Source: Gammaproteobacteria bacterium (lineage in GTDB: Bacteria > Pseudomonadota > Gammaproteobacteria > Acidiferrobacterales > SPGG2). Taken from it: 39,637 bases of DNA. The stretch lies in contig JAOTYM010000032.1 of assembly GCA_029861845.1 (NCBI GenBank), positions 1 to 39,637 of the forward strand. The letters are read 5' to 3'. Numbering within the stretch: position 1 is the first letter of the stretch; each line of letters begins with the position of its first letter. The notes beneath the pieces are model-generated. The model saw nothing but the letters and a program-made list of their open reading frames with translations, had not been told where the DNA came from and ran no database searches. Shown piece by piece: positions 3,544-25,802 of the stretch. Position numbers and translations under genes: made by a program.

Positions 3544-4053
3544 TCATGGCCGTCCTGTCAATGTGACGTGAACTTGGTTATCGTCCGGTGATCGCATCGC
3601 GCCGACCAGGCGCCAGTTGCCGCCTTCCATCTGCAGATACCAGCGCCCTGGCGCCAACTTCGGTAGCAGTGATCGGTAACTGCTGTCCAAAGTACGATGT
3701 AAGACGAGCGTATGATCGAAACCGTCGCGCGTTGCGTGTGACAGCTTTAGTTTGAGCTGCCCAGGCAGTTGATTCAGCTGCTTTGCCGTTAGTCGCGCCA
3801 TCACCAGGCCCAGATCATAATCGATAAGAACATCGGCCTCGATCCCATGTATGGCCGCCCACTGATCGCGCGCGAGTACACGATTTATGTCTTTCCCGCG
3901 CCAATAGTAATCATCTACAACGAGACCGTCGTTAGACATGATTGCCAGAAAGAACGTGGCCACACCGCCAATCACCGCCGCCAGCGGGATCGCGATCAAC
4001 ATCCATACCATTGGTTCGCGATACCAGACAGATTTTTCGTTCATGGACATCAT
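3544..4053 (-). CDS. ccoH: cbb3 oxidase assembly protein CcoH/FixH
   Basis: A 169-residue FixH-family protein with one N-terminal membrane helix (about residues 12-38) and a periplasmic beta-rich domain. The family signature VVDDYYWRGKDIN follows the helix. CcoH is a single-span factor needed for stable assembly of the cbb3 oxidase. Its ATG shares one base with the ccoG stop codon (TGATG), so the two are translationally coupled. A TTG two codons further upstream is possible, but the overlapping ATG is more convincing. Length and order (ccoG then ccoH) match the canonical ccoGHIS group, although ccoI and ccoS are on the opposite strand in this genome. Confidence 0.92.
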   Translation of the reverse strand: MMSMNEKSVWYREPMVWMLIAIPLAAVIGGVATFFLAIMSNDGLVVDDYYWRGKDINRVLARDQWAAIHGIEADVLIDYDLGLVMARLTAKQLNQLPGQLKLKLSHATRDGFDHTLVLHRTLDSSYRSLLPKLAPGRWYLQMEGGNWRLVGAMRSPDDNQVHVTLTGRP

Positions 4054-5525
4054 CAACAACCTGCTGGCCCAAGAAAACGTGCGTCTTGCCGCACCAAGAG
4101 CTTAGGGTTATCCGAGGCGTGTAGTTTGAACGTGACGGCAGTGCTCGCTTTCGCAAGATCACATGGATGCGCCTGCAACCATACGGGAATCTCGCGTATC
4201 CCGCCGGCTTCTACGAGAATCTCACTATGTTCGATGTTCACGCCAAGCCCCTTAATACCTTCGGCGTTGACTACATACCGGTGCGGCTCATTATCCATAT
4301 TGAGGATCTTCAAGATGTACACATTCTCTACAAGGCCGGCGTCAGTTTCGCGATAGAGCGTTTTACGATCGCGGGTGATATCGAGATCTAACGGCACCCG
4401 TAACAATACCGCGACAATCAGGGCCAAGCCGACAGCGGTAAGCAGGCTTGCGTAGATCACGACCCTTGCTCGCAGGATACGGTTGGGTTTGCCTGCGAGC
4501 TCGTTCTCCGTCGTATGGCGGATCAGACCTTTGGCATAACCCATCTTGTCCATAACCGTATCGCATGCATCTATGCAGGCGCCGCAGGCGATGCATTGAT
4601 ACTGGAGACCGTCGCGAATATCGATACCGGTTGGACATACCTGTATACAAAAGGTGCAGTCAATACAGTCACCTAGGCCCATCCCCTTATAGTCGTCACG
4701 GCGCTGGCGTGAACCGCGTGGCTCGCCCCGCGCCCCATCGTAGGAAATGATAAGCGTATCTCGATCAAACATGGCGCTCTGGAAGCGTGCATAGGGACAT
4801 AGATAGATGCATACCTGTTCGCGCAGCCAGCCGGCATTGCCATAGGTCGCAAAGCCATAGAAGGCAATCCAGAATGTCTCCCAGGGGCCGAGCGAAAAGC
4901 CCAGGACAGACTGGGAGAGTTCACGGATGGGGGTGAAGTAACCCACGAAGGTAAAACCGGTCCATAGTGAGAACAGTATCCAAACAAAATGCTTGCTGCC
5001 TTTCTTGATGACTTTCTCTGAATTCCAAGGCTGCTTCGCGAGTTTCATCTGCTTAGGGCGATCGCCTTCGATCTTGCGCTCGATCCATAAGAATACTTCC
5101 GTCCATACCGTCTGCGGGCAGGTATAGCCGCACCACAGACGGCCCGCTACGGCAGTGAACAGGAACAGCGACAACGCAGAGATGATCAGTACGGCAGTAA
5201 GGTAGAATAGATCTTGCGGCCAGAACGTCCACCAGAACAGGTGAAACTTTCGCGCCGGCAGATCGATAAGAAACGCCTGCCGCCCTTCACCCCAATTGAT
5301 CCAAGGCAAAAAATAGTAAACGCCGAGAGTGAGCGCGACCATGATGGTACGCCAGGTCGCAAAGACACCATGGACCGCGCGTGGATAGATAGACTCCCGT
5401 TGGGTATAGAGTGCGTGCTCAAGGCCGTCGTCCGTGCTGACCACGGTGACCGCTTTCTGTCGATCCTCTTGATCGTTCTTTGTGTTGCTTGTCTTCGGTC
5501 GTCGGTGTGTCTCGATTGGTGTCAC
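4053..5525 (-). CDS. ccoG: cbb3 oxidase accessory ferredoxin-like protein CcoG/RdxA
   Basis: A 490-residue polytopic iron-sulfur protein, implicated in reducing copper for the cbb3 oxidase. The N-terminal third holds about four membrane helices with the CcoG motif GRLWCGYTCPQTVWTEVF. The middle has LREQVCIYLCPYARFQSAMF and two [4Fe-4S] ferredoxin motifs (CIDCTFCIQVCP and CIACGACIDAC). The C-terminal part is an Ig-like periplasmic domain (FixG C-terminal type) after a last helix. The GTG start overlaps the ccoP stop (GTGA), so translation is probably coupled. Length is normal for the family and all cluster cysteines are present. Confidence 0.95.
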   Translation of the reverse strand: MTPIETHRRPKTSNTKNDQEDRQKAVTVVSTDDGLEHALYTQRESIYPRAVHGVFATWRTIMVALTLGVYYFLPWINWGEGRQAFLIDLPARKFHLFWWTFWPQDLFYLTAVLIISALSLFLFTAVAGRLWCGYTCPQTVWTEVFLWIERKIEGDRPKQMKLAKQPWNSEKVIKKGSKHFVWILFSLWTGFTFVGYFTPIRELSQSVLGFSLGPWETFWIAFYGFATYGNAGWLREQVCIYLCPYARFQSAMFDRDTLIISYDGARGEPRGSRQRRDDYKGMGLGDCIDCTFCIQVCPTGIDIRDGLQYQCIACGACIDACDTVMDKMGYAKGLIRHTTENELAGKPNRILRARVVIYASLLTAVGLALIVAVLLRVPLDLDITRDRKTLYRETDAGLVENVYILKILNMDNEPHRYVVNAEGIKGLGVNIEHSEILVEAGGIREIPVWLQAHPCDLAKASTAVTFKLHASDNPKLLVRQDARFLGPAGC

Positions 5526-6436
5526 TGAGCCTCTTTCTGATGCGACAGACTATAGACATAGGCCGCCAACAAATGAACCTTGGCTTCCCCTAGGAAGTCC
5601 GCGTGTGCCGGCATCTGTCCTTGACGGCCTTCCGCAATAGTCTTCATCACAACCCGTTGCGATCCACCATAGAGCCACTTATTATTTGTTAGATTCGGGG
5701 CGCCCATAGCCGGATTACCTTTCGCATCAGACCCGTGGCAGGCGATACACAGCTGTTTAAATTTCTGTTCACCTTCGCGAGCTACCTTTTCATCTACCTG
5801 ACGTCCATTCAGACTTAGCACATATTCGGTTACGTTGAACACGCCTTCGCTGCCTAAGGCGCTCCCCCAGCCTGGCATCACGCCGGTGCGTCCGTTCATG
5901 ATGCTGGTCTTTATTTGTTGCGGCTCACCGCCATAAAGCCAGTCGTCATCGCGCAAATTAGGGAAACCCGATCCACCACGGGCATCGGATCCATGACAGG
6001 TCGCGCAATAGTTGAGGAACAGGCGTTGCCCAGTCTTCAGTGCCTGCTGATCGCCGGCCAGCACGCTGATTTGCTCCCGAAAGTACGTTTCGTACAGCGG
6101 TCCGAAACGCTGGTCAGCGGCCTCGACTTCATCCTGGTACTGATTGAGCTGAGTCCATCCCAGCGTACCGGCGAAGTTGCCGAGACCGGGATACAACACT
6201 AGATAACCAATACCAAAAACGAGGGTTATGTAGTAAAGATTAAGCCACCAACGGGGTAACGGATTGTTTAACTCCTTGAGGTCTTGATCCCACACGTGGC
6301 CCATGGTCTTCGGTTTCTCTTGGGGCCTGCGTCTTGGTTCCGTCATCCATATATTAAGGATAAAGAGCGCGATGATCCCAGCAGCAACTAGAACGAAGAT
6401 CAACCAACTCCAAAAAGCGCTCGTGAAATCAGCCAT
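5522..6436 (-). CDS. ccoP: cbb3 cytochrome c oxidase subunit III (diheme)
   Basis: A 304-residue diheme cytochrome c, the electron-entry subunit of the cbb3 oxidase. Two N-terminal membrane helices (MADFTSAFWSWLIFVLVAAG onward, and NLYYITLVFGIGYLVLYPG) flank a short cytoplasmic loop with TMGHVWDQDLKELNNPLPRW, a CcoP signature. Two periplasmic heme domains follow, with CATCHGSDARGG and CIACHGSDAKGN. The ATG at 6436 overlaps the end of ccoQ by 8 bases and has a GAGGAAC ribosome-binding site; upstream codons in the same frame are ccoQ sequence read out of frame. Confidence 0.97.
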   Translation of the reverse strand: MADFTSAFWSWLIFVLVAAGIIALFILNIWMTEPRRRPQEKPKTMGHVWDQDLKELNNPLPRWWLNLYYITLVFGIGYLVLYPGLGNFAGTLGWTQLNQYQDEVEAADQRFGPLYETYFREQISVLAGDQQALKTGQRLFLNYCATCHGSDARGGSGFPNLRDDDWLYGGEPQQIKTSIMNGRTGVMPGWGSALGSEGVFNVTEYVLSLNGRQVDEKVAREGEQKFKQLCIACHGSDAKGNPAMGAPNLTNNKWLYGGSQRVVMKTIAEGRQGQMPAHADFLGEAKVHLLAAYVYSLSHQKEAQ

Positions 6437-6614
6437 CTTGTTCCTCTTTCGGCGTCGACGCTGGCAATCCGGGCGTTTCATCATCTTCCAGTGGCACCCG
6501 TGCTGCCATGTCGAAGCTACTCTTTCGATTCTTACTCCATGCCCAGATGACAATACCGACAAACAGCACCATCAGTACGATCGTCCACAGGCTATGGAAA
6601 ATGGTGAGGTCCAA
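6429..6614 (-). CDS. ccoQ: cbb3 oxidase subunit IV (CcoQ)
   Basis: A 61-residue single-span protein, MDLTIFHSLWTIVLMVLFVG onward, followed by an acidic cytoplasmic tail. CcoQ stabilises the cbb3 complex. The start is TTG at 6614, supported by an AAGGAGA ribosome-binding site 8 bases upstream and by the conserved spacing between the start and the HSLWT motif. It begins 3 bases after the ccoO stop and overlaps ccoP by 8 bases. Confidence 0.92.
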   Translation of the reverse strand: MDLTIFHSLWTIVLMVLFVGIVIWAWSKNRKSSFDMAARVPLEDDETPGLPASTPKEEQDG

Positions 6615-6617
6615 CCG

Positions 6618-7232
6618 TTATCTCCTTGTCTTTATCGTGGTGCCCAGCACCTGCAAGTAAGCGATCATCGCATCCATCTCCGTTTTTCCCTCGAGTTCCT
6701 TCGGCGCGTTTTCGATCTGTTCATCGCTGTAGGGATGACCCAACGTTCGCAATACACGCATCTTCTTTTGGATGTCACCTGTGCCTAGCATATTCTTGTC
6801 GAGCCAGGGATAACCCGGCATGATCGACTCGGGCACGACATCGCGCGGGTTGATCAGATGGATGCGATGCCATTCATCGCTATAACGGCCGCCGACGCGC
6901 GCCAAGTCTGGTCCGGTGCGTTTTGAGCCCCATTGGAATGGTCGATCGTAGACGAACTCACCGGCCACCGAGTAGTGGCCATAGCGTTCGGTTTCGGCGC
7001 GAAATGGCCGGATCATCTGCGAGTGACATGCCATGCACGACTCGCGGATGTATAGGTCGCGCCCAGTAAGTTGCAATGCGCTATAGGGTTTCAGTCCTTG
7101 CACCGGTTCGGTGGTAGATCTCTGGAAGAACAACGGCACGATCTCGACGATGCCGCCAATACTAACGACCAGGATCACCAGGACGACCATCAAGCCAACG
7201 CTTGTCTCAATCTTCTCATGTCCGGTTGCCAT
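6618..7232 (-). CDS. ccoO: cbb3 cytochrome c oxidase subunit II (monoheme)
   Basis: A 204-residue membrane-anchored monoheme cytochrome c that passes electrons from CcoP to CcoN. One N-terminal helix ([20 protein letters not shown]) is followed by the heme site [15 protein letters not shown]. The typical CcoO sequences [20 protein letters not shown] and [18 protein letters not shown] follow, along with a candidate axial methionine in [10 protein letters not shown]. It lies 11 bases after ccoN and is complete. Confidence 0.97.
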
Positions 7233-7243
7233 GCCAGTTCTCC

Positions 7244-8659
7244 CTAGCTCGCCGGCGCTGGGATGCGCGCCTCCACTGGCTTAGCGCCCACGATAGTGTT
7301 CCACAGGTTATATGCCATGATTAACATCCCACCGAGGAAGCACAGCCCACCTAACAAACGCACGATGTAGAATGGATGCATCGCTTGCACGCTTTCGACG
7401 AAGCTATATGTCAACGTGCCATCGGGATTGATTGCGCGCCACATCAATCCTTGCATCACACCCGAAATCCACATCGATGAGATGTAGAGCACGATACCGA
7501 TGGTGGCTATCCAAAAGTGTGTATCGATCAGCTTGATGCTATAGATCTCGCGTCCGAAGAGCCGAGGAATAAGAAAATACATCGCACCGATCGAGACCAT
7601 GGCGACCCAGCCAAGCGCACCCGAGTGTACGTGACCAATGGTCCAATCCGTGTAATGCGACAGGGCATTCACGGTTTTGATGGCCATCATGGGTCCCTCA
7701 AACGTAGACATGCCGTAGAACGAGACCGATACGATAAGAAACTTCAAAATTGGATCGCTGCGTAACTTCTGCCAGGCACCTGAGAGGGTCATGATACCGT
7801 TAATCATGCCGCCCCAACTTGGCGCCAACAGGATCAACGAAAAGACCATGCCTACAGACTGCACCCAGTCTGGCAAGGCGGTGTAATGCAGATGATGCGG
7901 TCCGGCCCAGATGTACGCAAAAATCAATGACCAGAAGTGGACCACCGATAGTCGATAGGAATATACCGGTCGGTTCGCCTGCTTAGGGATAAAGTAATAC
8001 ATGATCCCTAGAAACCCTGCCGTCAGGAAAAACCCCACTGCATTGTGCCCATACCACCACTGCACCATCGCGTCCTGCACGCCGGCATACACGGAATATG
8101 ACTTGATCCAGGTCACAGGCAGCGCCAAGCTGTTAAAGACATGTAACACTGCAATGGTGAGGATGAAGGCGCCAAAGAACCAGTTAGCGACATAAATGTG
8201 GTTAATCTTGCGCTTGATGAGGGTGCCAAAAAACACGATCGCGTAGGCCACCCAGACTACTGTGATCAAGATATCGATCGGCCACTCAAGCTCGGCGTAC
8301 TCCTTGGTGGTGGTGATTCCCAGCGGGAGCGTGACAGCAGCCAACACGATCACCGCCTGCCAACCCCAAAAGGTGAACGACGCCAAACCGTCGCTAAACA
8401 GGCGTACATGGCAGGTGCGTTGAACAACATAATACGATGTCGCAAACAAAGCGGACCCGCCGAAGGCGAAGACCACGGCATTCGTATGGAGGGCACGGAG
8501 CCGGCCGAAGGTAAGCCAGGGAATATCGAAATTTAAGATTGGCCACGCCATCTGAGCAGCAATCAGTACGCCCACCAGCATACCGACAATGCCCCAGACA
8601 ATCGTCATGATGGCAAATTGACGGACGACTTTGTAGTTGTAAGTATCTGTCTTGGCCAT
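7244..8659 (-). CDS. ccoN: cbb3 cytochrome c oxidase subunit I (catalytic)
   Basis: A 471-residue heme-copper oxidase of the C (cbb3) type, reducing O2 at high affinity. It has about 12 membrane helices. Visible ligands are His58 in [12 protein letters not shown] for low-spin heme b, the CuB histidine in [11 protein letters not shown], the CuB pair in WAGPHHLHY and the heme histidines in [11 protein letters not shown]. The active-site tyrosine is in helix VII ([10 protein letters not shown]), as expected for cbb3 enzymes. This makes a useful contrast with the second heme-copper protein in the window, which lacks an equivalent tyrosine. It is the first structural gene of the cco operon and has normal length. 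Confidence 0.98.
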
Positions 8660-9605: not shown

Positions 9606-12116
9606 ATGGCGAGCGATTTTACCCAGTCCGCAACCACGGCCGCGTTCGACTCCACGCCAGCAGCGGATTGCTTTCATTGTGGCCTACCAGTTCCGGATGG
9701 ATCGGATTTCACTGTCCAGTTCGAAGGTGAGACCCGCCCGTTATGCTGCAAGGGCTGCGAAGCAGTAGCTGAGGCCATTATCGCCGGGGGCCTGTCGAAC
9801 TTTTATAAGTTTCGCACGCGGCCAGCCGTAACCGGTCGCGAGGTTGTGCCGGCGTATCTACGTCAGGCCGAGAGCTATGATCATCCCCAGGCGCAGAAGA
9901 GCTTCGTACGCACTGAAGATAATGCGACCCGAGAGGCCTCACTGATCCTGGAAGGCATTGTTTGCGCTGCCTGCGCATGGCTTATCGAGCGACATATCGC
10001 GGCGTTACCCGGGGTGTCGCGGGTACAGATCAATTACGGCAACCACCGCGCACGCGTGAACTGGGACGACGCGCGCATTCATCTAAGCCACATCATTAAA
10101 GCGGTGGCTCGCATCGGTTACCGCGCCTACCCCTATGACCCTAGCCACCACGAACAAATCCTCGAGAATGCGCGAAAACTGCATCTGCGGCGACTCGGCG
10201 TCGCCGGGGTGATGGGGATGCAAGTAATGATATTGGCAGTGGCGCTGTATGCGGGGGGATGGTCGGGCATCGAACAGGAGTTCCACGATTTTTTCCGCAT
10301 TCTGAGCCTTATACTTACCGTGCCGGTCGTACTGTATTCTGGTCAACCTTTCTTTCAGTCGGCCTGGCGTGATCTTAAGAACCTACAGCCCGGCATGGAT
10401 GTGCCGGTTTCCTTGGGCATCGCCATAGCATTCATAGCCAGTGCGTGGGCCGCCATCAATGGAACTGGTCACGTCTATTTTGACTCGGTCGTTATGTTCG
10501 TATTCCTCTTGTTGACCGCACGCTACTTTGAGATGGTTGCGCGCAAGCGCGCGACCGAGGCCTGCGGATCACTGGTGCACCCGGTCCCTGAGTTAGCAAC
10601 ACGCCTAGCTCAATCGGGACAAACCCATGAAGAAGAGCACGTGTCGGTTAACGAATTGAGGTTTGGCGATTGTGTACTGGTGCGCCCGGGTGAAACTGTG
10701 CCGATTGACGGCCACATCGTTGACGGTCACTCGACCGTTGACGAATCATTGTTGACCGGTGAATCGATGCCACTGCCCAAAACGCCAGGCCAATCACTTC
10801 TAGCCGGGAGCATCAATATAGAAAGCCCGCTAACAATCAAAGCGGAAAGGCTTGGTCCAGATACGCGACTAGCCGCCATCGTGCGACTGCTAGACCGGGC
10901 GCAAAGCGAGAAACCCCCTATTGCAAGAATGGCGGACCGCGTGGCATCTTGGTTTGTCACCGCGGTGTTAGTGCTGGCCGCTGTCGTGGCTAGCTATTGG
11001 TGGTACGTCGATCCACAGCAGTGGCTACCTATCACCATTGCGGTTCTCGTTATCACTTGCCCCTGCGCGCTCTCACTTGCCACACCGGCGGCGATTACCG
11101 CGGCCACCGGCCGGCTAACGCGCTTGGGCCTGCTCGTCACTCGGGGTCATGCCCTTGAACGCCTCGCGCGCACGACCTATTTTGTATTCGACAAAACCGG
11201 CACGCTCACGTGCGGCCGGCTTCGCTTAGTGGAAACACAGGTATTCTCTGCCATGGACGCGCACACATGCCAGCGCTATGCGATAAGCCTTGAACAATAT
11301 TCAGAGCACCCGATTGCCAAGGCCTTGTTCGACGCCTGTGCCAATCATCGGCGGTTGCCGGTAGCCAAACCCAGCGCTACACCTGGTCGTGGCGTACAGG
11401 GGCTCATTGGTGGCAAGCGCTTCGTACTCGGTACACCCGAGTTTGTGCATCGGCAGACGGGCTTGGCCTTGGAGGGTAATGAGTTGGCTCGCCTATATGA
11501 ACAAGACTGTACCATCGTGCTCTTGGCTTCTGACGACATCGTACATGCAGCGTTTCTGTTGTTGGACGAAATTCGGCCCGGTGCTCGCGACCTGATCGAT
11601 ACCCTCAATGCCAGCGGGAAAACCGTGATGCTGATGACGGGGGATCATGAGCAAGCTGCACGGTATGTTGCTGATCGGATCGGCATCCACCACGTCAATT
11701 GGGACCTAACCCCCGAGATCAAGCTTGAACAAATAAGGATGCTACAGAAACAGGGCCAAATCGTGGCGATGGTCGGAGACGGCGTGAACGACGCGCCGGT
11801 GTTGGCCCAGGCCGATAGCTCGATTGCGATGGGCGGTGGTACTCGGCTAGCGGCGGTGGCGGCAGATATGATTCTGTTGTCGGAACAGCTGCCACATCTC
11901 GCTTCTGCTATCGAAATCGCGGACAAGACATTGAAGATCATTCGTCAGAATATGACGTGGGCCGTTTTGTACAATGTCATTGCGGTGCCGGCGGCGGCGC
12001 TGGGATTTGTCGCTCCATGGATAGCGGTGCTTGGTATGTCGGCAAGCTCGCTGCTGGTAGTCGCCAACGCCCTGCGTCTGGTAGGGGGTGGTACGCGCCA
12101 AGGTCTCGTGAACTGA
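9606..12116 (+). CDS. ccoI: Cu(+)-exporting P-type ATPase CcoI/FixI
   Basis: An 836-residue P1B-type ATPase supplying copper to the cbb3 oxidase. The N-terminus has the CcoI-specific cysteine-rich zinc-finger-like segment (Cys22, Cys25, Cys47, Cys48, Cys51), then a heavy-metal-associated domain with GIVCAACAWLIE (Cys120, Cys123). Further along are TGES near 384 (actuator), the transmembrane copper site CPC at 485-487, DKTGTLT from 529 (phosphorylated Asp) and GDGVNDAP from 724. All catalytic motifs are intact. It begins an operon with ccoS and lies opposite the ccoNOQP arm, across a shared 275-base intergenic region. Confidence 0.96.
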   Translation: MASDFTQSATTAAFDSTPAADCFHCGLPVPDGSDFTVQFEGETRPLCCKGCEAVAEAIIAGGLSNFYKFRTRPAVTGREVVPAYLRQAESYDHPQAQKSFVRTEDNATREASLILEGIVCAACAWLIERHIAALPGVSRVQINYGNHRARVNWDDARIHLSHIIKAVARIGYRAYPYDPSHHEQILENARKLHLRRLGVAGVMGMQVMILAVALYAGGWSGIEQEFHDFFRILSLILTVPVVLYSGQPFFQSAWRDLKNLQPGMDVPVSLGIAIAFIASAWAAINGTGHVYFDSVVMFVFLLLTARYFEMVARKRATEACGSLVHPVPELATRLAQSGQTHEEEHVSVNELRFGDCVLVRPGETVPIDGHIVDGHSTVDESLLTGESMPLPKTPGQSLLAGSINIESPLTIKAERLGPDTRLAAIVRLLDRAQSEKPPIARMADRVASWFVTAVLVLAAVVASYWWYVDPQQWLPITIAVLVITCPCALSLATPAAITAATGRLTRLGLLVTRGHALERLARTTYFVFDKTGTLTCGRLRLVETQVFSAMDAHTCQRYAISLEQYSEHPIAKALFDACANHRRLPVAKPSATPGRGVQGLIGGKRFVLGTPEFVHRQTGLALEGNELARLYEQDCTIVLLASDDIVHAAFLLLDEIRPGARDLIDTLNASGKTVMLMTGDHEQAARYVADRIGIHHVNWDLTPEIKLEQIRMLQKQGQIVAMVGDGVNDAPVLAQADSSIAMGGGTRLAAVAADMILLSEQLPHLASAIEIADKTLKIIRQNMTWAVLYNVIAVPAAALGFVAPWIAVLGMSASSLLVVANALRLVGGGTRQGLVN

Positions 12117-16456: not shown

Positions 16457-16990
16457 ATGGCTGTCGTACCTCCAACTGAACGCATATGGTGGAAGGAGCG
16501 CATCGCCAAGGTCGAAATCATGTGGGTGGCCATCGCCTTCTTGTGGGGCCTGGTCATGTTTTTCATGATGATCTATTGGCATGGCGCAGGTAAGCAGAAC
16601 ATTTCTAATGAGGCCTATCGCACCGATCCCGCTGTATTCGCGCAAAAGGCACAGGCCATGGCGGAGCAATACAAGGTGCGCGAGGAGGCCGGGATTCCGG
16701 TTGTGCATCCACCCCCCGGTAGTGACGTATATCTGATCGCGCGCCTATGGCAATGGTGGCCGATCCTTGAGCTCGAAAAAGATAAGGCTTACCGGCTGCA
16801 CCTCATGTCTATGGACTGGCAGCATGGTTTTTCTGCCCAGCCAGTCAACCTCAACCTACAGATTCACCCAAACTATGACATGGTGCTCACCGTCACGCCC
16901 GATCAGGCGGGGGAGTTCGGTATCATTTGTAACGAATATTGCGGCATTGGCCACCACACCATGGTGGGCAGACTCTACGTGAAAGAGTAA
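16457..16990 (+). CDS. Heme-copper oxidoreductase subunit II with CuA site
   Basis: A 177-residue membrane-anchored cupredoxin. One helix near residues 20-40 precedes a periplasmic CuA domain with all ligands visible: His123 in MDWQHGFSAQ, then Cys158, Glu160, Cys162, His166 and Met169 in CNEYCGIGHHTM. It should accept electrons from a soluble cytochrome c. A complete CuA site next to a tyrosine-less subunit I is the combination reported for sNOR (NorS/NorY) enzymes; ordinary cNOR uses a cytochrome c subunit instead. It has a GGGGG-rich ribosome-binding site and lies 11 bases before subunit I. Confidence 0.9.
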   Translation: MAVVPPTERIWWKERIAKVEIMWVAIAFLWGLVMFFMMIYWHGAGKQNISNEAYRTDPAVFAQKAQAMAEQYKVREEAGIPVVHPPPGSDVYLIARLWQWWPILELEKDKAYRLHLMSMDWQHGFSAQPVNLNLQIHPNYDMVLTVTPDQAGEFGIICNEYCGIGHHTMVGRLYVKE

Positions 16991-17001
16991 AGGGGGCGAC
17001 C

Positions 17002-18675
17002 ATGGCGACAGCGACTCAATTCCGCACCTGTCCCACAACCGGGCTGCGTGTCGATCTCAAGGCGGAGAACCTGATCAAGGCCAACGCGGTAGCAGCCGTG
17101 ATCTTTCTTGCCGTTGGCGGATTTTTTGGCCTACTCGTCGGCCTTACCCGTTGGCCGGCGGTACACCTACTCCCGGCCGACTGGTTCTACTTAGCACTCA
17201 CTGCGCATGGACTCGATGTGCTAATTGTGTGGATCATCTTCTTTGAAATGGCGATTCTGTATTTTGCCTCCGCCATTTTGTTGAATTCGCGACTGGCGGG
17301 ACCGCGGTGGGCGTGGCTCGGTTTTGGCCTCATGGTCGTGGGCGCCGTCGTGGTAAATATCGCGGTGTTACAGGGCGGCTCGACCGTGATGTTTACCTCA
17401 TACGTACCCATGAAGGCGGCGCCACATTTTTACCTCGGGATCATACTGTTCGCGGTAGGCGCACTGATTGGTTGTTTCGTGTTCTTCGGCACGCTGGTAG
17501 TCGCGAAAGAAGAACGTACCTACCAAGGATCGATACCGCTTGTTACGTTTGGCGCTTTGACTGCTGCCATTATCGCCGTATTCACCATCGCGTCCGGCGC
17601 CATTATCTTGATTCCGACGCTGTTATGGTCAATGGGGCTTATTAGTCACATCGATTCGCTCATGTACAAGACCATATGGTGGGCGATGGGTCACTCCTCG
17701 CAGCAGGTAAATGTATCGGCACATGTGGCAGTATGGTACGCGATCGCCGCCATTGTGCTCGGTGCGCGGACGCTCTCTGAAAAAGTGAGTCGCACCGCGT
17801 TTTTGCTATATATCTTGTTCCTGCAGCTCGCCTCGGCCCACCATCTCTTGGTCGAACCCGGGATCAGTTCCGAGTGGAAGATCTTTAATACCAGTTACGC
17901 CATGTACCTGGCCGTGCTCGGCAGCATGATCCATGGCATGACGGTACCGGGATCGATCGAGGCAGCGCAGCGCCACCGAGGGCTCAACCGCGGGTTGTTT
18001 GAATGGCTGCGCAAGGCACCGTGGGGCAATCCGGCCTTCTCAGGTATGTTCCTGTCGTTGATCATGTTCGGCTTTATTGGTGGTATTTCCGGGGTCGTCA
18101 TGGGCACCGAGCAGCTCAACATCATCATGCACAATACGCTGTACACACCGGGGCATTTTCACGGGACCGTGGTCGCTGGCACCACCCTTGCCTTTATGGC
18201 AATCACCTACTTGATCATTCCACTGATCTTCCGTCGTGAGCTGGTGATGAAGAAGATCGCACAATGGCAACCCTATGTATTCAGTATTGGAGTGGCTGGC
18301 CTCTCCCTCTTCATGATGGGAGCCGGCACGCTGGGCGTCTCACGTCGCCATTGGGACATGACGTTCGCAGATGCGGCCCTCAAGTTCGACTACCCTGAGG
18401 CGGCCTTCTTGATGATGGGACTGAACGGACTAAGCGCTATATTGGCGGCGCTCGGCGGAATCATGTACATCGCCGTCGTCGTCGGTTCCGTGCTATTTGG
18501 CAAACGCACGACCGAGCAGTCACTACCAAAGCTGAACGTAATTGCCAGCTACGGTAGCGCCGATTCGGTCAAAGTCCCGGGAACAGTTGTGATGGTAGCG
18601 GTGTTCTTCACTGCGTTTGTGCTTTACTACTTCATCAACTGGAAGTACTTATCGGAAATCTGGCCGTTGAGCTAG
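17002..18675 (+). CDS. Heme-copper subunit I, tyrosine-less, sNOR-like
   Basis: A 557-residue catalytic subunit with about 12-13 helices. All six histidines of the heme-copper fold are present: His69 (TAHGLDVLIVW), His231 (AMGHSSQQVNVSAH), His280 and His281 (ASAHHLLVEP), and His385 and His387 (TPGHFHGTV). The usual helix VI motif GHPxVY reads GHSSQQ here, so the tyrosine cross-linked to the CuB histidine is replaced by Gln235. Helix VII has no cbb3-style tyrosine beside the HH pair. Loss of that tyrosine is a hallmark of NO-reductase branches of the superfamily, and the CuA partner, ctaB and SCO neighbours resemble the norSY-senC arrangement of ammonia oxidisers. An oxidase with another proton/electron donor remains possible. 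Confidence 0.85.
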   Translation: MATATQFRTCPTTGLRVDLKAENLIKANAVAAVIFLAVGGFFGLLVGLTRWPAVHLLPADWFYLALTAHGLDVLIVWIIFFEMAILYFASAILLNSRLAGPRWAWLGFGLMVVGAVVVNIAVLQGGSTVMFTSYVPMKAAPHFYLGIILFAVGALIGCFVFFGTLVVAKEERTYQGSIPLVTFGALTAAIIAVFTIASGAIILIPTLLWSMGLISHIDSLMYKTIWWAMGHSSQQVNVSAHVAVWYAIAAIVLGARTLSEKVSRTAFLLYILFLQLASAHHLLVEPGISSEWKIFNTSYAMYLAVLGSMIHGMTVPGSIEAAQRHRGLNRGLFEWLRKAPWGNPAFSGMFLSLIMFGFIGGISGVVMGTEQLNIIMHNTLYTPGHFHGTVVAGTTLAFMAITYLIIPLIFRRELVMKKIAQWQPYVFSIGVAGLSLFMMGAGTLGVSRRHWDMTFADAALKFDYPEAAFLMMGLNGLSAILAALGGIMYIAVVVGSVLFGKRTTEQSLPKLNVIASYGSADSVKVPGTVVMVAVFFTAFVLYYFINWKYLSEIWPLS

Positions 18676-18693: not shown

Positions 18694-19569
18694 ATGGTCG
18701 TGAGCGATACGATTAGGTTGCTGTACTCGGTCTTCAAGCTTCGCATCGGGTTTGCAATCATGCTGACGGCGCTGGCCGGCGTCGCGGTCACGCCCGGTCA
18801 GGGCCCTGGGGTATGGCAAATCGCGATACTTGCCCTGGCGGTGCTGGCGTCTTCCGCAAGTGCTGGTGCGTTTAACCATTACGCCGAACGCGATCTCGAC
18901 CGGCGCATGAAACGTACTCGCAAGCGACCCTTTGTGACCGGTCGTTTTCACGCCAACCGCTACTGGCTCGCCGGTATCGCCTTATTGCTCCTGGTCGCCG
19001 TGACCACCACCGCACTCGCCGTCAATCCCGTGTCGGCGCTTTACGTATTTCTGGGCGCGTTCGTGTATGGCGTTGTCTACACCGTATGGTTGAAACGCCG
19101 AACCTGGCTCAACATCGTGCTCGGCGGCCTGGCTGGCAGTTTCGCTGTCCTTGCCGGGGCCGCCGCGGTCGATCCGGGCCTTGCGCCAACGCCAGTAATA
19201 CTAGCGATAGTGCTGTTCCTGTGGACGCCACCTCACTTCTGGAGTCTCGCCTTTGTTTTTCAAAAAGACTATGCGGCCGCCGGGGTGCCGATGCTGCCGG
19301 TGGTGGTTGCGGATACGATCGCGGCACGTATTATTCTGGCTCACACCGTACTACTCGTGATGCTGTCGCTCCTACCCATCGCCTTCGGTCTCGGTTGGAT
19401 CTACCTGATTGGCGCCGCCTCGGGCGGTGGTCTTTTTGTCTGCAAGAGCATTGCGTTGTTACGCCGTCCGGGTCCGACGACGGCGATGGCAAATTTTCAT
19501 GCCTCTTTAATTCAGCTGAGTCTTTTGTTGTGTGCAGCGATGTTAGATGCGTTGGTGTTAGCACATTGA
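18694..19569 (+). CDS. ctaB: Protoheme IX farnesyltransferase (heme O synthase)
   Basis: A 291-residue UbiA-family prenyltransferase that converts heme b to heme o. It has about nine membrane helices. The first aspartate-rich site reads NHYAERDLDRRMKRTRKRP, the CtaB/CyoE version, and LFLWTPPHFWSLAF with FQKDYAAAGVPMLPVV marks the second half. Its place between subunit I and SCO implies that the neighbouring complex uses an o- or a-type heme. No ctaA is visible in the window. An ATG at 18694 with a GGGAG ribosome-binding site follows subunit I by 18 bases. The gene end overlaps the SCO start by 4 bases. Confidence 0.93.
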   Translation: MVVSDTIRLLYSVFKLRIGFAIMLTALAGVAVTPGQGPGVWQIAILALAVLASSASAGAFNHYAERDLDRRMKRTRKRPFVTGRFHANRYWLAGIALLLLVAVTTTALAVNPVSALYVFLGAFVYGVVYTVWLKRRTWLNIVLGGLAGSFAVLAGAAAVDPGLAPTPVILAIVLFLWTPPHFWSLAFVFQKDYAAAGVPMLPVVVADTIAARIILAHTVLLVMLSLLPIAFGLGWIYLIGAASGGGLFVCKSIALLRRPGPTTAMANFHASLIQLSLLLCAAMLDALVLAH

Positions 19570-20408
19570 CGAATTACTTAAACCTCACGAGGCCGGTTCT
19601 ACTAGCGGTCGGGATCGCTGTCACGTCGACAGGTACCGTGTCAGCCCACGACAAGAAACATGAACCGGGCCCAAGTTCATCTTTCGATGAGGCCTCAGCG
19701 CTATCAGCGTGTCAAGCGGCTTTAGGGCGCCAGGTTGCTGACCAAAGATTCTTCGATCGCCGAGGACGGGCCGTAACATTGAGTGAGTTTTACGGGCGAC
19801 CAATAGTCATCAGCCTTATTTATACGAGCTGCTACCATACCTGCCCAACTCTCACCAACCATCTCGCTCGGATCGCCAAGGTGGCGCGGGCCGCCGTTGG
19901 CGAAGATAGCTTTTCGGTGCTGACCATCGGCTTTGATACGTCGGCGGATACCCCGGCACGTATGCAAACCTTTGCCCGTGAGCGCGGCATCGACCATGCT
20001 CACTGGCGTTTTCTAACCGCAGATGCCACAACCATAGCAAGCCTGACGCGCGACCTTGGTTTTACGTTCTTTAGGTCGCCGAATGGTTTTGACCATATAG
20101 TGCAGACCACTGTGCTCGATGCCAAGGGAAATGCGTACAGGCAGATTTATGGTGAGGGATTCGATCCCCCAAACCTAGTCGAACCGCTTAAACAACTAGT
20201 CTTTGGTACCAAAGCGAACACAAGCACACTGTCGGGGTGGATCAACGGCGTGCGCTTGCTTTGTACAATCTATGACCCCAGTAGCGAGCGATATCGCTTC
20301 GATTACTCTCTGCTTGTTGCTATAGGCGTCGGCCTTATTAGCCTTGGCGCTGTCGGCGTTTTTATCGTGCGGGCTTGGCGACAAAGCAATTCCCCTACTA
20401 CAGTGTAG
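19566..20408 (+). CDS. SCO1/SenC-family copper chaperone
   Basis: A 280-residue thioredoxin-fold protein that delivers copper to CuA sites. A signal sequence (MTNYLNLTRPVLLAVGIAV) ends near residue 27. The copper site has Cys89 and Cys93 in IYTSCYHTCPTLTNH and His177 in NGFDHIVQTT, all intact. Unusually it also has a C-terminal helix (LLVAIGVGLISLGAVGVFIV) that should anchor it in the membrane. The proposed start is a TTG that overlaps the ctaB stop (TTGA); no in-frame ATG gives a better signal peptide. It most likely metallates the CuA subunit of this operon, as senC does in norSY clusters. Confidence 0.9.
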   Translation: MTNYLNLTRPVLLAVGIAVTSTGTVSAHDKKHEPGPSSSFDEASALSACQAALGRQVADQRFFDRRGRAVTLSEFYGRPIVISLIYTSCYHTCPTLTNHLARIAKVARAAVGEDSFSVLTIGFDTSADTPARMQTFARERGIDHAHWRFLTADATTIASLTRDLGFTFFRSPNGFDHIVQTTVLDAKGNAYRQIYGEGFDPPNLVEPLKQLVFGTKANTSTLSGWINGVRLLCTIYDPSSERYRFDYSLLVAIGVGLISLGAVGVFIVRAWRQSNSPTTV

Positions 20409-20492: not shown

Positions 20493-22052
20493 ATGACAGC
20501 ACTACGACGATTCGCGAGGGCCAACCTCGAACATATTGAGGGCGTATTTGACCGAGCATTCGGTCCGGCGTGGAACCCGCTTTACCAACTCGGCGCACTC
20601 GGATGGTTCTTTTATTGGGTTGTGGCGGTAAGTGGTATCTACCTCTTCATTTTCTTCGATACCGGAATTACCGACGCTTACGAATCAGTCGAATACATCA
20701 CTAACGTGCAGTGGTATGCGGCCGGCGTGATGCGTAGTCTCCACCGATATGCATCCGATGCCATGGTGATCGTAATGATGGTTCACCTGATTCGGGAATT
20801 TGCCATGGGACGCTATCGCGGCCCGCGCTCGTTTGCCTGGATTACAGGCGTACCCATTCTGTGGTTCATATACGCATCTGGTATCACGGGTTACTGGCTA
20901 GTGTGGGACAAACTTGCGCAGTATGTCGCGATTGCCACCACCGAGTGGCTCGACACATTACCGATTTTTGGCGAAGCGATCGCGCGTAACTTTCTGCACG
21001 AAACAACGCTTAGCAGTCGTTTCTTTAGCTTGATGGTGTTCATTCACATTGCCGTACCATTGATACTGCTTTTTATCATGTGGATACACATTCAGCGGCA
21101 CTCATCGCCCAAAGTAAACCCACCGCGCGGGTTAGCAGTGGGAACTTTGATTATGCTTATGGTGTTGTCGTTCGCCTATCCTGCTACTAGTCAGGGACCG
21201 GCGGATCTCAACGTGGTCGCCGCTGTCGTCGACCTGGATTGGTTTTACCTGCCTGCGTACCCATTCCTGGACATGATTCCGGGTATTACGCTCTGGGCCG
21301 TATTCGGTATCGGCACGGTCGTGCTGCTGCTGGTTCCATGGTTGCCACCGACACGCCGTCAGGCGGTTGCTACCGTAGATCTAGATAACTGCAATGGCTG
21401 TGGTCGTTGTGTCGATGATTGCCCGTTTAGTGCAGTCAGCATGCAGCCGCGCACTGATGACAAGCCTTTTGCGCAAGAAGCCGTAGTGGACGCAAATCTT
21501 TGCACAAGCTGTGGTATTTGCGCCGGGGCCTGCCCCACTGCGACGCCTTTTCGACGCGCCAGTGCGCTTACGCCTGGCATCGATCTTCCCAATTCTTCAA
21601 TACGCGACCTCAGAGACAGAACGCTTAGCGCCGCCGACCAACTTTCGGGTGACGCTAGGGTAATCGTCTATGGCTGCCGGGCGGGCGTCAATCTGGACGC
21701 GCTACAAGGCCCAAGCATAGCAACACTTTGTGCACCATGTACTGCCACCGTACCCCCTTCTTTTCTTGACTTTGTCATTTCGCGTCATCACGTCGATGGC
21801 GTTTTTCTCACGGGTTGTCGCGAGGGTGATTGCTTCAACCGTCAGGGAATTAGGTGGGTACAACAACGCATCGCTGGCCAACGTGACCCTTATCTGCGCA
21901 CGCGTGTCCCGCGTGAACGTATCGCTAAATTGTGGGCAGGGGTGGCCGGTCCCCAACAACTGGCCGATGAACTGGATGCATTCCGTAATCGACTGAGAGG
22001 GCTTGGGGCATTCAGAAAAGCAGCGCCCAAACAGAACGACCACCACGGCTAA
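20493..22052 (+). CDS. Cytochrome b-ferredoxin-FlpD fusion protein
   Basis: A 519-residue fusion. Residues 1-215 are a cytochrome b N-terminal domain with bis-histidine heme sites His84/His98 and His185/His199, spaced 14 as in bc complexes. Residues 216-285 contain further hydrophobic helices. Two [4Fe-4S] motifs follow (Cys300, 303, 306, 310 and Cys337, 340, 343, 347). The C-terminal part (about 388-465) resembles the FlpD/MvhD electron-transfer subunit of heterodisulfide reductase and hydrogenase complexes, with cysteines 395, 413, 416, 442 and 447 (LTGCREGDCFNRQG). It could carry electrons between the quinone pool and a cytoplasmic partner. No Rieske or cytochrome c1 gene is nearby. The ATG at 20493 is a best guess; a GTG 15 codons upstream is possible. 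Confidence 0.85.
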   Translation: MTALRRFARANLEHIEGVFDRAFGPAWNPLYQLGALGWFFYWVVAVSGIYLFIFFDTGITDAYESVEYITNVQWYAAGVMRSLHRYASDAMVIVMMVHLIREFAMGRYRGPRSFAWITGVPILWFIYASGITGYWLVWDKLAQYVAIATTEWLDTLPIFGEAIARNFLHETTLSSRFFSLMVFIHIAVPLILLFIMWIHIQRHSSPKVNPPRGLAVGTLIMLMVLSFAYPATSQGPADLNVVAAVVDLDWFYLPAYPFLDMIPGITLWAVFGIGTVVLLLVPWLPPTRRQAVATVDLDNCNGCGRCVDDCPFSAVSMQPRTDDKPFAQEAVVDANLCTSCGICAGACPTATPFRRASALTPGIDLPNSSIRDLRDRTLSAADQLSGDARVIVYGCRAGVNLDALQGPSIATLCAPCTATVPPSFLDFVISRHHVDGVFLTGCREGDCFNRQGIRWVQQRIAGQRDPYLRTRVPRERIAKLWAGVAGPQQLADELDAFRNRLRGLGAFRKAAPKQNDHHG

Positions 22053-22065
22053 CAACGGGAAAGTG

Positions 22066-22569
22066 ATGACAAAATCATGGCAAATCCTTCTCCAGTGTCT
22101 AGCCTATGTTGCTTTCGCGGTTGTTGTCGGTTACTTTTCGAGCGCCCCCGCCTATGTCCATCTTGATCCAAACAAAGCGCTCATAAAACTGAGCTTGAGC
22201 CACGCTGGTCAACTCAAAGGTGAATGCCGTCGACTGACGCAGGAGGAACTAGAAAAGCTGGCACCGAACATGCGTCGGCCGCTCGACTGTCCACGAGAGC
22301 GCTTACCGTTACTGGTGGAACTTATATTGGACGGGAATTTACTATACCGCGAACTGCTGCCGCCCACCGGCTTAGCGAGCGATGGCGCCTCGGTCGCCTA
22401 CGCGCGCTTTGCGGTCGAACCGGGTTCGTACCAGTTGATCGCTCGGTTGCGCGATAGCAACCGTGAGCAAGGATTCGATTACGAACACGGGGCACATATC
22501 GAACTAAGGCCGCAGCAAAATTTTGTCGTCGACTTCCGGGCGGAACCAGAGGGATTTATATTCAAGTAG
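22066..22569 (+). CDS. Membrane-anchored periplasmic protein, unknown
   Basis: A 167-residue protein with one N-terminal helix (WQILLQCLAYVAFAVVVGYF) and a beta-rich exported domain. Two cysteines (in LKGECRRLTQEE and RPLDCPRERLP) could form a disulfide. The segment YVHLDPNKALIKLSLSHAGQ and repeated short strands suggest an immunoglobulin-like or transthyretin-like sandwich. I do not recognise the family. It begins with a GGGAAAG ribosome-binding site 13 bases after the cytochrome b fusion, so it is probably part of the same operon and may be an accessory subunit or assembly factor of the sNOR-like system. Confidence 0.7.
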   Translation: MTKSWQILLQCLAYVAFAVVVGYFSSAPAYVHLDPNKALIKLSLSHAGQLKGECRRLTQEELEKLAPNMRRPLDCPRERLPLLVELILDGNLLYRELLPPTGLASDGASVAYARFAVEPGSYQLIARLRDSNREQGFDYEHGAHIELRPQQNFVVDFRAEPEGFIFK

Positions 22570-22589: not shown

Positions 22590-22982
22590 ATGTCACTAAT
22601 AGAGTGGAAAAAGGAATTTTTGATCGGCGTGCCCGATGTCGATCACGAACACAGAGAGTTGATCGAGTTGATCAACCGATTGCACGCGAGCCTGGATCGT
22701 GACGACCCCCCAATAACGGTCGAGGAATTTCTCGGTGATATCTATGCCCAAATCTCAGCCCACTTCGCGCTTGAAGAAAAAATCATGCGTCATCACAACT
22801 ACGACGAGTACAAGGAACACAAGGCCGACCATGAGCGTCTACTCGATGACATTCGTGACATTATGGATGACTATCAGGACGATTCGCGGTTCGATAAGGA
22901 GCGTTTAGCTGAACGCCTGAAGTCGTGGTTCACACTACATTTCAAGACCAAGGATGCGCGATTGCACAAAAGCCTGCGGTAG
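22590..22982 (+). CDS. Bacteriohemerythrin
   Basis: A 130-residue four-helix protein with a di-iron site. Ligands are visible: His21 (DVDHEHREL), His58 and Glu62 (HFALEEKIM), His77 and His81 (EHKADHERL), and His117 with Asp122 (LHFKTKDARLH). Bacterial hemerythrins bind O2, and some bind NO. It starts 20 bases after the unknown membrane-anchored protein on the same strand, so it is likely co-transcribed with the sNOR-like operon. A role in delivering or buffering O2 or NO for the membrane enzyme is an inference. Confidence 0.93.
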   Translation: MSLIEWKKEFLIGVPDVDHEHRELIELINRLHASLDRDDPPITVEEFLGDIYAQISAHFALEEKIMRHHNYDEYKEHKADHERLLDDIRDIMDDYQDDSRFDKERLAERLKSWFTLHFKTKDARLHKSLR

Positions 22983-25361: not shown

Positions 25362-25802
25362 TTAAAGCCGTTTGCTAAATGCTTGGTCCACCTCTTGACG
25401 GATCTGCAAGATCGGCAACTGCTTTTTGTTCAGCCGCCAGGCCATGATGGCCTGTTGCTGGCAGATGCCGCAATTGGCCCCATGCAGATCAACGAAACAA
25501 CTCTTGAGGCTTTTATGGCCGATGGTGGGCTCGCATTCACAGTAACAATAGAGGTGGTCCAACACATCCGGTATCTCCGCCGCTACCTGGTAGGCGCGAC
25601 CGGCCGGGCCCGCAAAATACTTGCCATCCAGGATGGGGCGCATCTCCCCGCCCCGCAGCACTTTCAGATCCGTCGTCGCGATCGGTCCCCTCGGCGTATG
25701 GCGCCGGGGGTAGCCGCCAGCCGCCTCGGCCAACTTGACCGTGACACCAGCGCTAGACAGCAGCCCTAGTGCCATCAGTTTGAACATACTGCGTCGGTTC
25801 AT
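25362..25802 (-). CDS. Tat-exported PCYCGC-motif protein
   Basis: A 146-residue protein with a twin-arginine-like leader (MNRRSMFKLMALGLLSSAGV). The mature part has a dense cysteine set: Cys86, Cys88 and Cys90 in LYCYCECEP, Cys102, then Cys111 and Cys114 in GANCGICQQQA, with histidines in TIGHKSLKSC and VDLHGAN. This is the PCYCGC-motif family, whose function is not established; metal binding is likely from the residues. Tat export suggests folding around a cofactor before transport. An FNR-type box about 69 bases upstream of the ATG suggests low-oxygen expression. The gene looks intact, unlike several neighbours. Confidence 0.82.
   Translation of the reverse strand: MNRRSMFKLMALGLLSSAGVTVKLAEAAGGYPRRHTPRGPIATTDLKVLRGGEMRPILDGKYFAGPAGRAYQVAAEIPDVLDHLYCYCECEPTIGHKSLKSCFVDLHGANCGICQQQAIMAWRLNKKQLPILQIRQEVDQAFSKRL

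Follow-up and report, generated by a model that had tools for sequence, protein, structure and literature searches.

A cytochrome b-ferredoxin-FlpD fusion accompanies an sNOR-like heme-copper enzyme and may serve as its electron-entry device

To our knowledge, the route by which electrons reach sNOR-type enzymes, which are predicted NO reductases or oxidases, has not been settled in the bacteria considered here. CcoG (RdxA/FixG), a protein of oxidase maturation, combines a transmembrane part, two [4Fe-4S] clusters and a periplasmic domain, and is not known to contain cytochrome b or FlpD. Proteins of the HdrA2/QmoB type end in a tail of two [4Fe-4S] clusters followed by MvhD, and a free MvhD has been proposed as the membrane link of a Sporomusa Hdr complex for which that study did not identify a membrane partner (PMC9430772). 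In ammonia oxidisers, sNOR is encoded in norS-norY-senC(-orf1) operons (PMC3772326; PMC4940428), and norS-norY-senC is the described sNOR gene order (PMC3772326). A combination of cytochrome b with FlpD is already in print: RME88945.1 is a single ORF with cytochrome b6, an Fe-S (DMSOR_beta-like) domain and FlpD, to which, judged by its entry in Table A3 of PMC8756737, a cytochrome c (C1) domain is added, and the material seen from that paper states no link to sNOR. Among the literature matches listed, none describes a cytochrome b-FlpD protein together with sNOR.

The window analysed here, the whole stretch of 39,637 nucleotides, encodes a protein for which the original prediction had proposed that a quinone-type cytochrome b, two [4Fe-4S] clusters and an FlpD/MvhD module are joined in one chain, and this architecture is borne out by the heme histidines, the cluster motifs, and Pfam and fold matches (Table 1). 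The N-terminal part has the bc1/b6f cytochrome b fold with the four heme histidines in helices B and D, and represents a truncated bc1-type cytochrome b. The C-terminal part is identified as FlpD/MvhD by a Pfam profile above its cut-off, by fold and by its cysteine set; a mismatch with such profiles, named beforehand as counter-evidence, did not occur. MvhD of 5odc, 9sw2 and 8rvu matches the fusion by sequence, in the case of 5odc and 8rvu also by fold, and residues 292-506 align to positions 571-773 of the HdrA2 model, a likeness to the HdrA2/QmoB-type tail. All cofactor ligands are conserved and lie on this one chain, and the four cysteines of the FlpD/MvhD module would suit one [2Fe-2S] cluster. 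In contrast to Hdr/MvhD systems, the fusion has no HdrA flavin core, is joined to a membrane cytochrome b and was seen with no Hdr or hydrogenase gene beside it. A cytochrome b fused to MvhD is, by analogy, what the membrane link of a Sporomusa-type Hdr complex could look like. With the general plan of CcoG, the fusion has the transmembrane part and the two [4Fe-4S] clusters in common, and it adds cytochrome b and FlpD. As to membership in the CcoG family itself (TIGR02745, cut-off 316.7 bits), this model is absent among the best 25 of 68 NCBIfam matches of the fusion, the 25th of which scores 23.6 bits.

Unlike the cytochrome b of bc1/b6f complexes, the fusion was seen with no adjoining Rieske or c1 gene, continues past helix F into Fe-S modules and has lost the loop after helix D that carries the K/D pair of the Qi site: aligned with the cytochrome b of its own genome, the corresponding columns are gaps in 12/12 fusions and in 3/3 of the NAD-type siblings described below. 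The PEWY-type motif of the Qo site is present as the variant LDWF, with D249 and W250 invariant in 91/91 sequences, where the bc1 cytochrome b of the same genome reads PLWY in the alignment. In bc1 complexes, the D252/K251 pair and E295 of PEWY act as proton carriers of Qi and Qo, respectively, and the protonable PEWY residue is missing in some organisms (PMC10583091). With the Qi loop deleted and the acid-tryptophan pair retained, the inner quinone site seems to be replaced by the Fe-S clusters, while an outer Qo-like pocket, a putative quinone site on the strength of its motif, may remain.

The gene belongs to a single-stranded operon of the order small transmembrane ORF, NorS, NorY, CtaB, Sco, fusion, orf22063 and bacteriohemerythrin, in which the widest intergenic gap, 84 bases, lies just 5' of the fusion. 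The residues H123, C158, E160, C162, H166 and M169 of NorS, which we take to be the CuA ligands, are kept in 20/20 sequences. NorY groups near the ba3-type oxidase and keeps the heme and CuB histidines, and a glutamine stands in place of the ba3 tyrosine (motif GHSSQQVN); H232, Q235, Q236, N238 and the CuB ligands H281/H282 are invariant in 61/61 sequences. A CuA-bearing subunit II and a subunit I with CuB histidines and without the active-site tyrosine, as expected of NorSY, are thus both present. We call the enzyme "sNOR-like", since the class residue given in Table A4 of PMC8756737 is Asn in sNOR and Gln in eNOR, and in NorY the column of the Tyr holds Gln, with Asn following two positions on, each in 61/61 sequences. 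The small ORF before norS, which fell below the cut-off of the ORF list, is probably a small sNOR subunit; its likeness to the ORFs of the plasmid loci was judged by eye (DNP..LL..., IWG). The order NorS, NorY, SenC/Sco is common to this operon and to those of ammonia oxidisers, for which the available parts of the reports name no cytochrome b-FlpD fusion, 168-aa partner or hemerythrin (PMC3772326; PMC4940428). Among the profiled operon proteins there is no HdrA flavoprotein and no Rieske or c1/f partner, a separate set of the latter being encoded elsewhere in the genome; this agrees with the earlier statement that no Rieske, cytochrome c1, Hdr or hydrogenase gene is near, none of them being seen beside the fusion among these proteins.

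Table 1. Features of the sNOR-like operon, of the fusion protein and of its siblings. Positions refer to the window unless a locus (L) is given.
Feature	Position	Strand	Remarks
Small ORF before norS, one TM, 60 aa	16260..16442	+	Resembles the short ORFs that precede norS on Defluviimonas, Thermomicrobium and Thermus plasmids
NorS-like subunit II, one TM and CuA cupredoxin	16457..16990	+	CoxB-like profile match, below cut-off
NorY-like heme-copper subunit I	16999..18675	+	ATG at 17002; residue numbering from 16999
CtaB heme O synthase	18694..19569	+	TIGR01473, 259.6 bits, over cut-off
SCO1/SenC-family protein	19551..20408	+	PF02630; start uncertain
Fusion, cytochrome b - two [4Fe-4S] - FlpD/MvhD	20493..22052	+	519 aa
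Fusion, cytochrome b helices A-D	20571..21095	+	Heme ligands H84/H98/H185/H199
Fusion, D249-W-F-Y in ef loop, PEWY position of Qo site	21237..21248	+	D249, W250 invariant
Fusion, two 4Fe-4S motifs	21366..21542	+	C300/303/306/310, C337/340/343/347
Fusion, FlpD/MvhD module	21648..22013	+	Four conserved Cys: 395, 416, 442, 447
168-aa partner orf22063	22063..22569	+	N-terminal TM helix 3-27, beta-sandwich, conserved C55/C76
Bacteriohemerythrin	22590..22982	+	NF033749, 98.4 bits, over cut-off
NAD-type sibling	L062:10640-12619	-	[2Fe-2S]-FAD-NAD(P)H reductase, MmoC/BenC-like
NAD-type sibling	L090:7552-9477	+	As above
NAD-type sibling	L091:9151-11139	+	As above

In the genomes sampled, the fusion nearly always accompanies the sNOR-like heme-copper enzyme. 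In the phylum sample (398 genomes; thresholds here and in the other samples E ≤ 1e-60 for the fusion and E ≤ 1e-80 for NorY), 34 genomes encode the fusion, 30 encode NorY and 29 both (Fisher p 8e-38), and counted by genus (213), 14 have both, none the fusion only and one NorY only (p 5e-21); since the genomes are related and not independent, and the three samples overlap in part, these p values are only a guide. The class sample (369 genomes) gave 34, 34 and 33, respectively. In the order sample (57 genomes), 22 matches were reduced to 20 fusions by leaving out two genomes with NAD-type siblings only (G438, G440), and the fusion occurs in 18/18 NorY genomes; the remaining two fusion genomes have terminal pieces of NorY at contig edges. 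NorY without the fusion was seen only in G069 and G702, where both contigs stop just after Sco or NorY. Conversely, the fusion lacks a NorY match in 5/34 cases of the phylum sample and 1/34 of the class sample (G121, G137, G145, G227, G278, G655), all of them incomplete or fragmented assemblies (completeness 69-96%, the 96% one in 730 contigs). Among the taxon names on homologues are Gammaproteobacteria, Chromatiales, Betaproteobacteria and Candidatus Aalborgicola.

This association extends to gene order. Synteny was assessed in 62 distinct loci, a subset of all matches fetched without the repeat L073 and loci lacking the fusion, and with the most downstream copy counted in tandem arrays (three loci with full tandem fusions and a fourth, L061, cut in the second copy). 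Of the 41 loci with 7 kb of room, 37 have NorY 5' of the fusion in the same orientation, the exceptions being L054, L056, L058 and L095, in the last of which norSY is divergent beside the fusion. A constant neighbour is orf22063, which has 946 homologues, with no Pfam domain in the 120 listed, and seems to be a fixed partner of the fusion: it is in the same gene group in 57/58 loci with room, at most 1.3 kb downstream in 55/58 and upstream in L062 and L090, and the 58th locus, L061, is a short contig that ends inside the second fusion copy. In 15 of the 29 phylum-sample genomes with both genes, fusion and NorY lie within 6 kb, two have them on one contig at 13.6 kb (G085) and 19.2 kb (G065), and 12 on different contigs, many of which are short. 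In G045 and G073, though, the two genes lie well inside separate long contigs (127-152 kb). Therefore, as the fusion and its 168-aa neighbour are far from norSY in some genomes, hitchhiking alone does not account for the association. At four fusion loci without norSY, the five neighbouring proteins searched against Pfam included no Hdr or hydrogenase protein; they comprised an rRNA methylase, a serine acetyltransferase-like protein, a TPP enzyme, a class V aminotransferase and one protein without a match. A random distribution of the fusion with no operon link to heme-copper genes, the outcome that was to speak against the original prediction, was thus not observed; a search for the domain order next to tyrosine-less heme-copper subunits, proposed there as a check, tied the fusion to NorY in all three samples, in synteny and on a plasmid.

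On plasmids, the fusion was found in 1/72,556 records, namely in Defluviimonas sp. SAOS-178_SWC (Alphaproteobacteria), which carries the complete cassette from the small ORF through hemerythrin. NorY matched 54 plasmid records. Three others were inspected, with distant NorY relatives from one Thermomicrobium and two Thermus plasmids (44.6-46.1% identity); they encode NorS together with the small ORF, and the fusion is absent. One of the Thermus copies is adjoined by nirS. These loci indicate that the fusion marks one branch of the enzyme and not the enzyme as such, and together with the ammonia-oxidiser operons, in which it is not named, they suggest that sNOR itself does not need it.

Besides, there is a sibling of approximately 640-660 aa in which the same cytochrome b domain is joined to Fer2, FAD and NAD domains; these most resemble reductases of the MmoC/BenC type. 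The sibling occurs in 4/62 fusion loci, 8.5 kb from the fusion in L089, and fills the usual slot of the fusion after Sco in L062 and L090. MmoC-like heads are known as NADH oxidisers. That a single b core is combined with interchangeable heads on the cytoplasmic side suggests electron entry from there.

The ligands on one chain, the co-occurrence with NorY, the constant 168-aa partner, the missing Qi loop and the retained DW motif are the basis on which we propose, with a probability of roughly 0.42, that the fusion is a membrane electron-entry device leading from a cytoplasmic donor to the outer face and on to NO reduction. A cytoplasmic ferredoxin-linked protein would dock on FlpD and donate electrons. 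The two [4Fe-4S] clusters, taking over from the lost Qi site, would relay these electrons to the inner heme b. From the outer heme b they would reduce quinone in the Qo-like pocket or a periplasmic acceptor, at a face that the anchored 168-aa protein may shape, and reach CuA of NorS either via bc1 and cytochrome c or more directly, driving 2 NO to N2O. In the sibling with the NADH-reductase head, this device would take its electrons from NADH.

With respect to the last step, the genome encodes cytochrome cd1, with no match for a Cu nitrite reductase, and its COX1-family proteins are the aa3 and cbb3 oxidases and NorY, which leaves NorY as the sole NOR candidate in this 92%-complete assembly. 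This is indirect evidence for the predicted reduction of NO to N2O by NorY. Against it, the Nitrosomonas sNOR has been suggested to be mainly a high-affinity oxidase, and the evidence noted for NO reduction is only indirect and comes from Nitrococcus (PMC6967387); if an oxidase role held here, the device would feed oxygen instead of NO reduction. Further points count against electron entry: the genome also encodes bc1, so that cytochrome c could supply NorS unaided, quinone reduction at the outer face with electrons from the cytoplasm would spend membrane potential, and there are the six fusion genomes without a NorY match as well as the fusion-less plasmid loci and ammonia-oxidiser operons. 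In addition, no partner of FlpD was found. With one HdrA-like query, an HdrA-type protein gave a strong match in 10/20 fusion genomes of the order and a weak one in 1/20, and was not found at E ≤ 1e-30 in 9/20, some of the genomes being incomplete; an Hdr-type bifurcating complex is thus unlikely as a general partner.

The gene also adjoins the assembly genes CtaB and Sco, directly after which it stands in most loci, and this brings up a maturation reductase as the best-surviving alternative, which we regard as doubtful. Here, the fusion and its periplasm-facing partner would reduce Cu(II) or Sco thiols to load CuA and CuB of NorS/NorY, as CcoG does for cbb3. The plan of transmembrane part, two [4Fe-4S] clusters and periplasmic beta-sandwich recalls CcoG, and such a role would account for co-occurrence with NorY at unlinked loci. 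However, the window already has a CcoG, and two b hemes, a Qo-type motif and an FlpD head would exceed the needs of such a reductase, and a dedicated paralogue with an NADH head, encoded in the same operon, fits respiration better. The fold list of orf22063 contains no CcoG-type folds, although absence from such a list is a weak test.

Somewhat less probable is a general outlet for redox balance, by which the fusion would pass electrons from excess ferredoxin or NADH to the quinone pool and would be linked to sNOR through their shared occurrence in low-oxygen, denitrifying cells. The quinone-type b part and the unlinked position in several genomes fit this explanation, but a near one-to-one association across many genera and the single plasmid cassette point to a specific partner, and the genomes that break the pattern on the fusion side are those with incomplete or fragmented assemblies.

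An electron-bifurcating or reverse-flow unit, as put forward in the original prediction, would oxidise quinol at the Qo-like site; of the two electrons, one would go towards sNOR and the other inward via b hemes and Fe-S clusters to a low-potential cytoplasmic acceptor. The retained DW motif, an Fe-S exit in place of Qi and the occurrence of FlpD modules in bifurcating Hdr complexes speak for it, but we consider it improbable, since the operon shows no Rieske-like acceptor, HdrA does not regularly accompany the fusion and the MmoC-like head of the sibling points the opposite way. Moreover, with potentials of about +0.09 V for ubiquinol, about +0.25 V for CuA and -0.32 V for NAD, the yield would fall far short unless the electron passed straight to NorY at high potential.

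Returning to electron entry, a bolder version is conceivable, though we think it unlikely: the cytochrome b-FlpD protein, or its NADH-headed sibling, and the 168-aa subunit would dock on sNOR and form a new respiratory complex. This complex would span the membrane as a cytoplasmic-reductant:NO oxidoreductase, circumvent both complex I and bc1, and carry exchangeable heads (ferredoxin/FlpD or NADH/flavin) on one bc1-derived diheme b core. Almost always found with the enzyme, at unlinked loci too and in a plasmid cassette, the fusion is a concrete candidate for the electron route of sNOR. If electron entry as proposed above holds, a bc1-type cytochrome b would have been turned into a plug-in injector of electrons whose heads on the cytoplasmic side can be swapped, and NADH or ferredoxin could be direct electron sources for the reduction of NO to N2O. 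Defluviimonas sp. SAOS-178_SWC, a named isolate with the plasmid cassette, makes the proposal testable.

Some additional observations concern the surroundings of these genes. Downstream of the fusion, 21/51 loci with room encode a second heme-copper-superfamily protein of 455-480 aa (e.g. L078:11684-13084, L008:886-2274), which keeps the heme histidines and lacks the CuB His-His pair in the aligned members; four members tested gave no NCBIfam match. Elsewhere in the genome of the window, contig C104 (L102:5440-10550) carries an HdrA-like pair, one member of which has a ferredoxin-MvhD tail of its own, together with an HdrB-like protein, a cluster of the Qmo/Hdr type. In the window itself, genes for the cbb3 oxidase subunits CcoN, CcoO and CcoP and for CcoG (4053-5525) occupy 4053-8659 (-), followed by a copper P-type ATPase at 9606-12116 (+), approximately 4 kb before the start of the sNOR-like operon, and a CYCXC-family (seleno)protein is encoded at 25362-25802 (-; NCBIfam NF041379, over cut-off).
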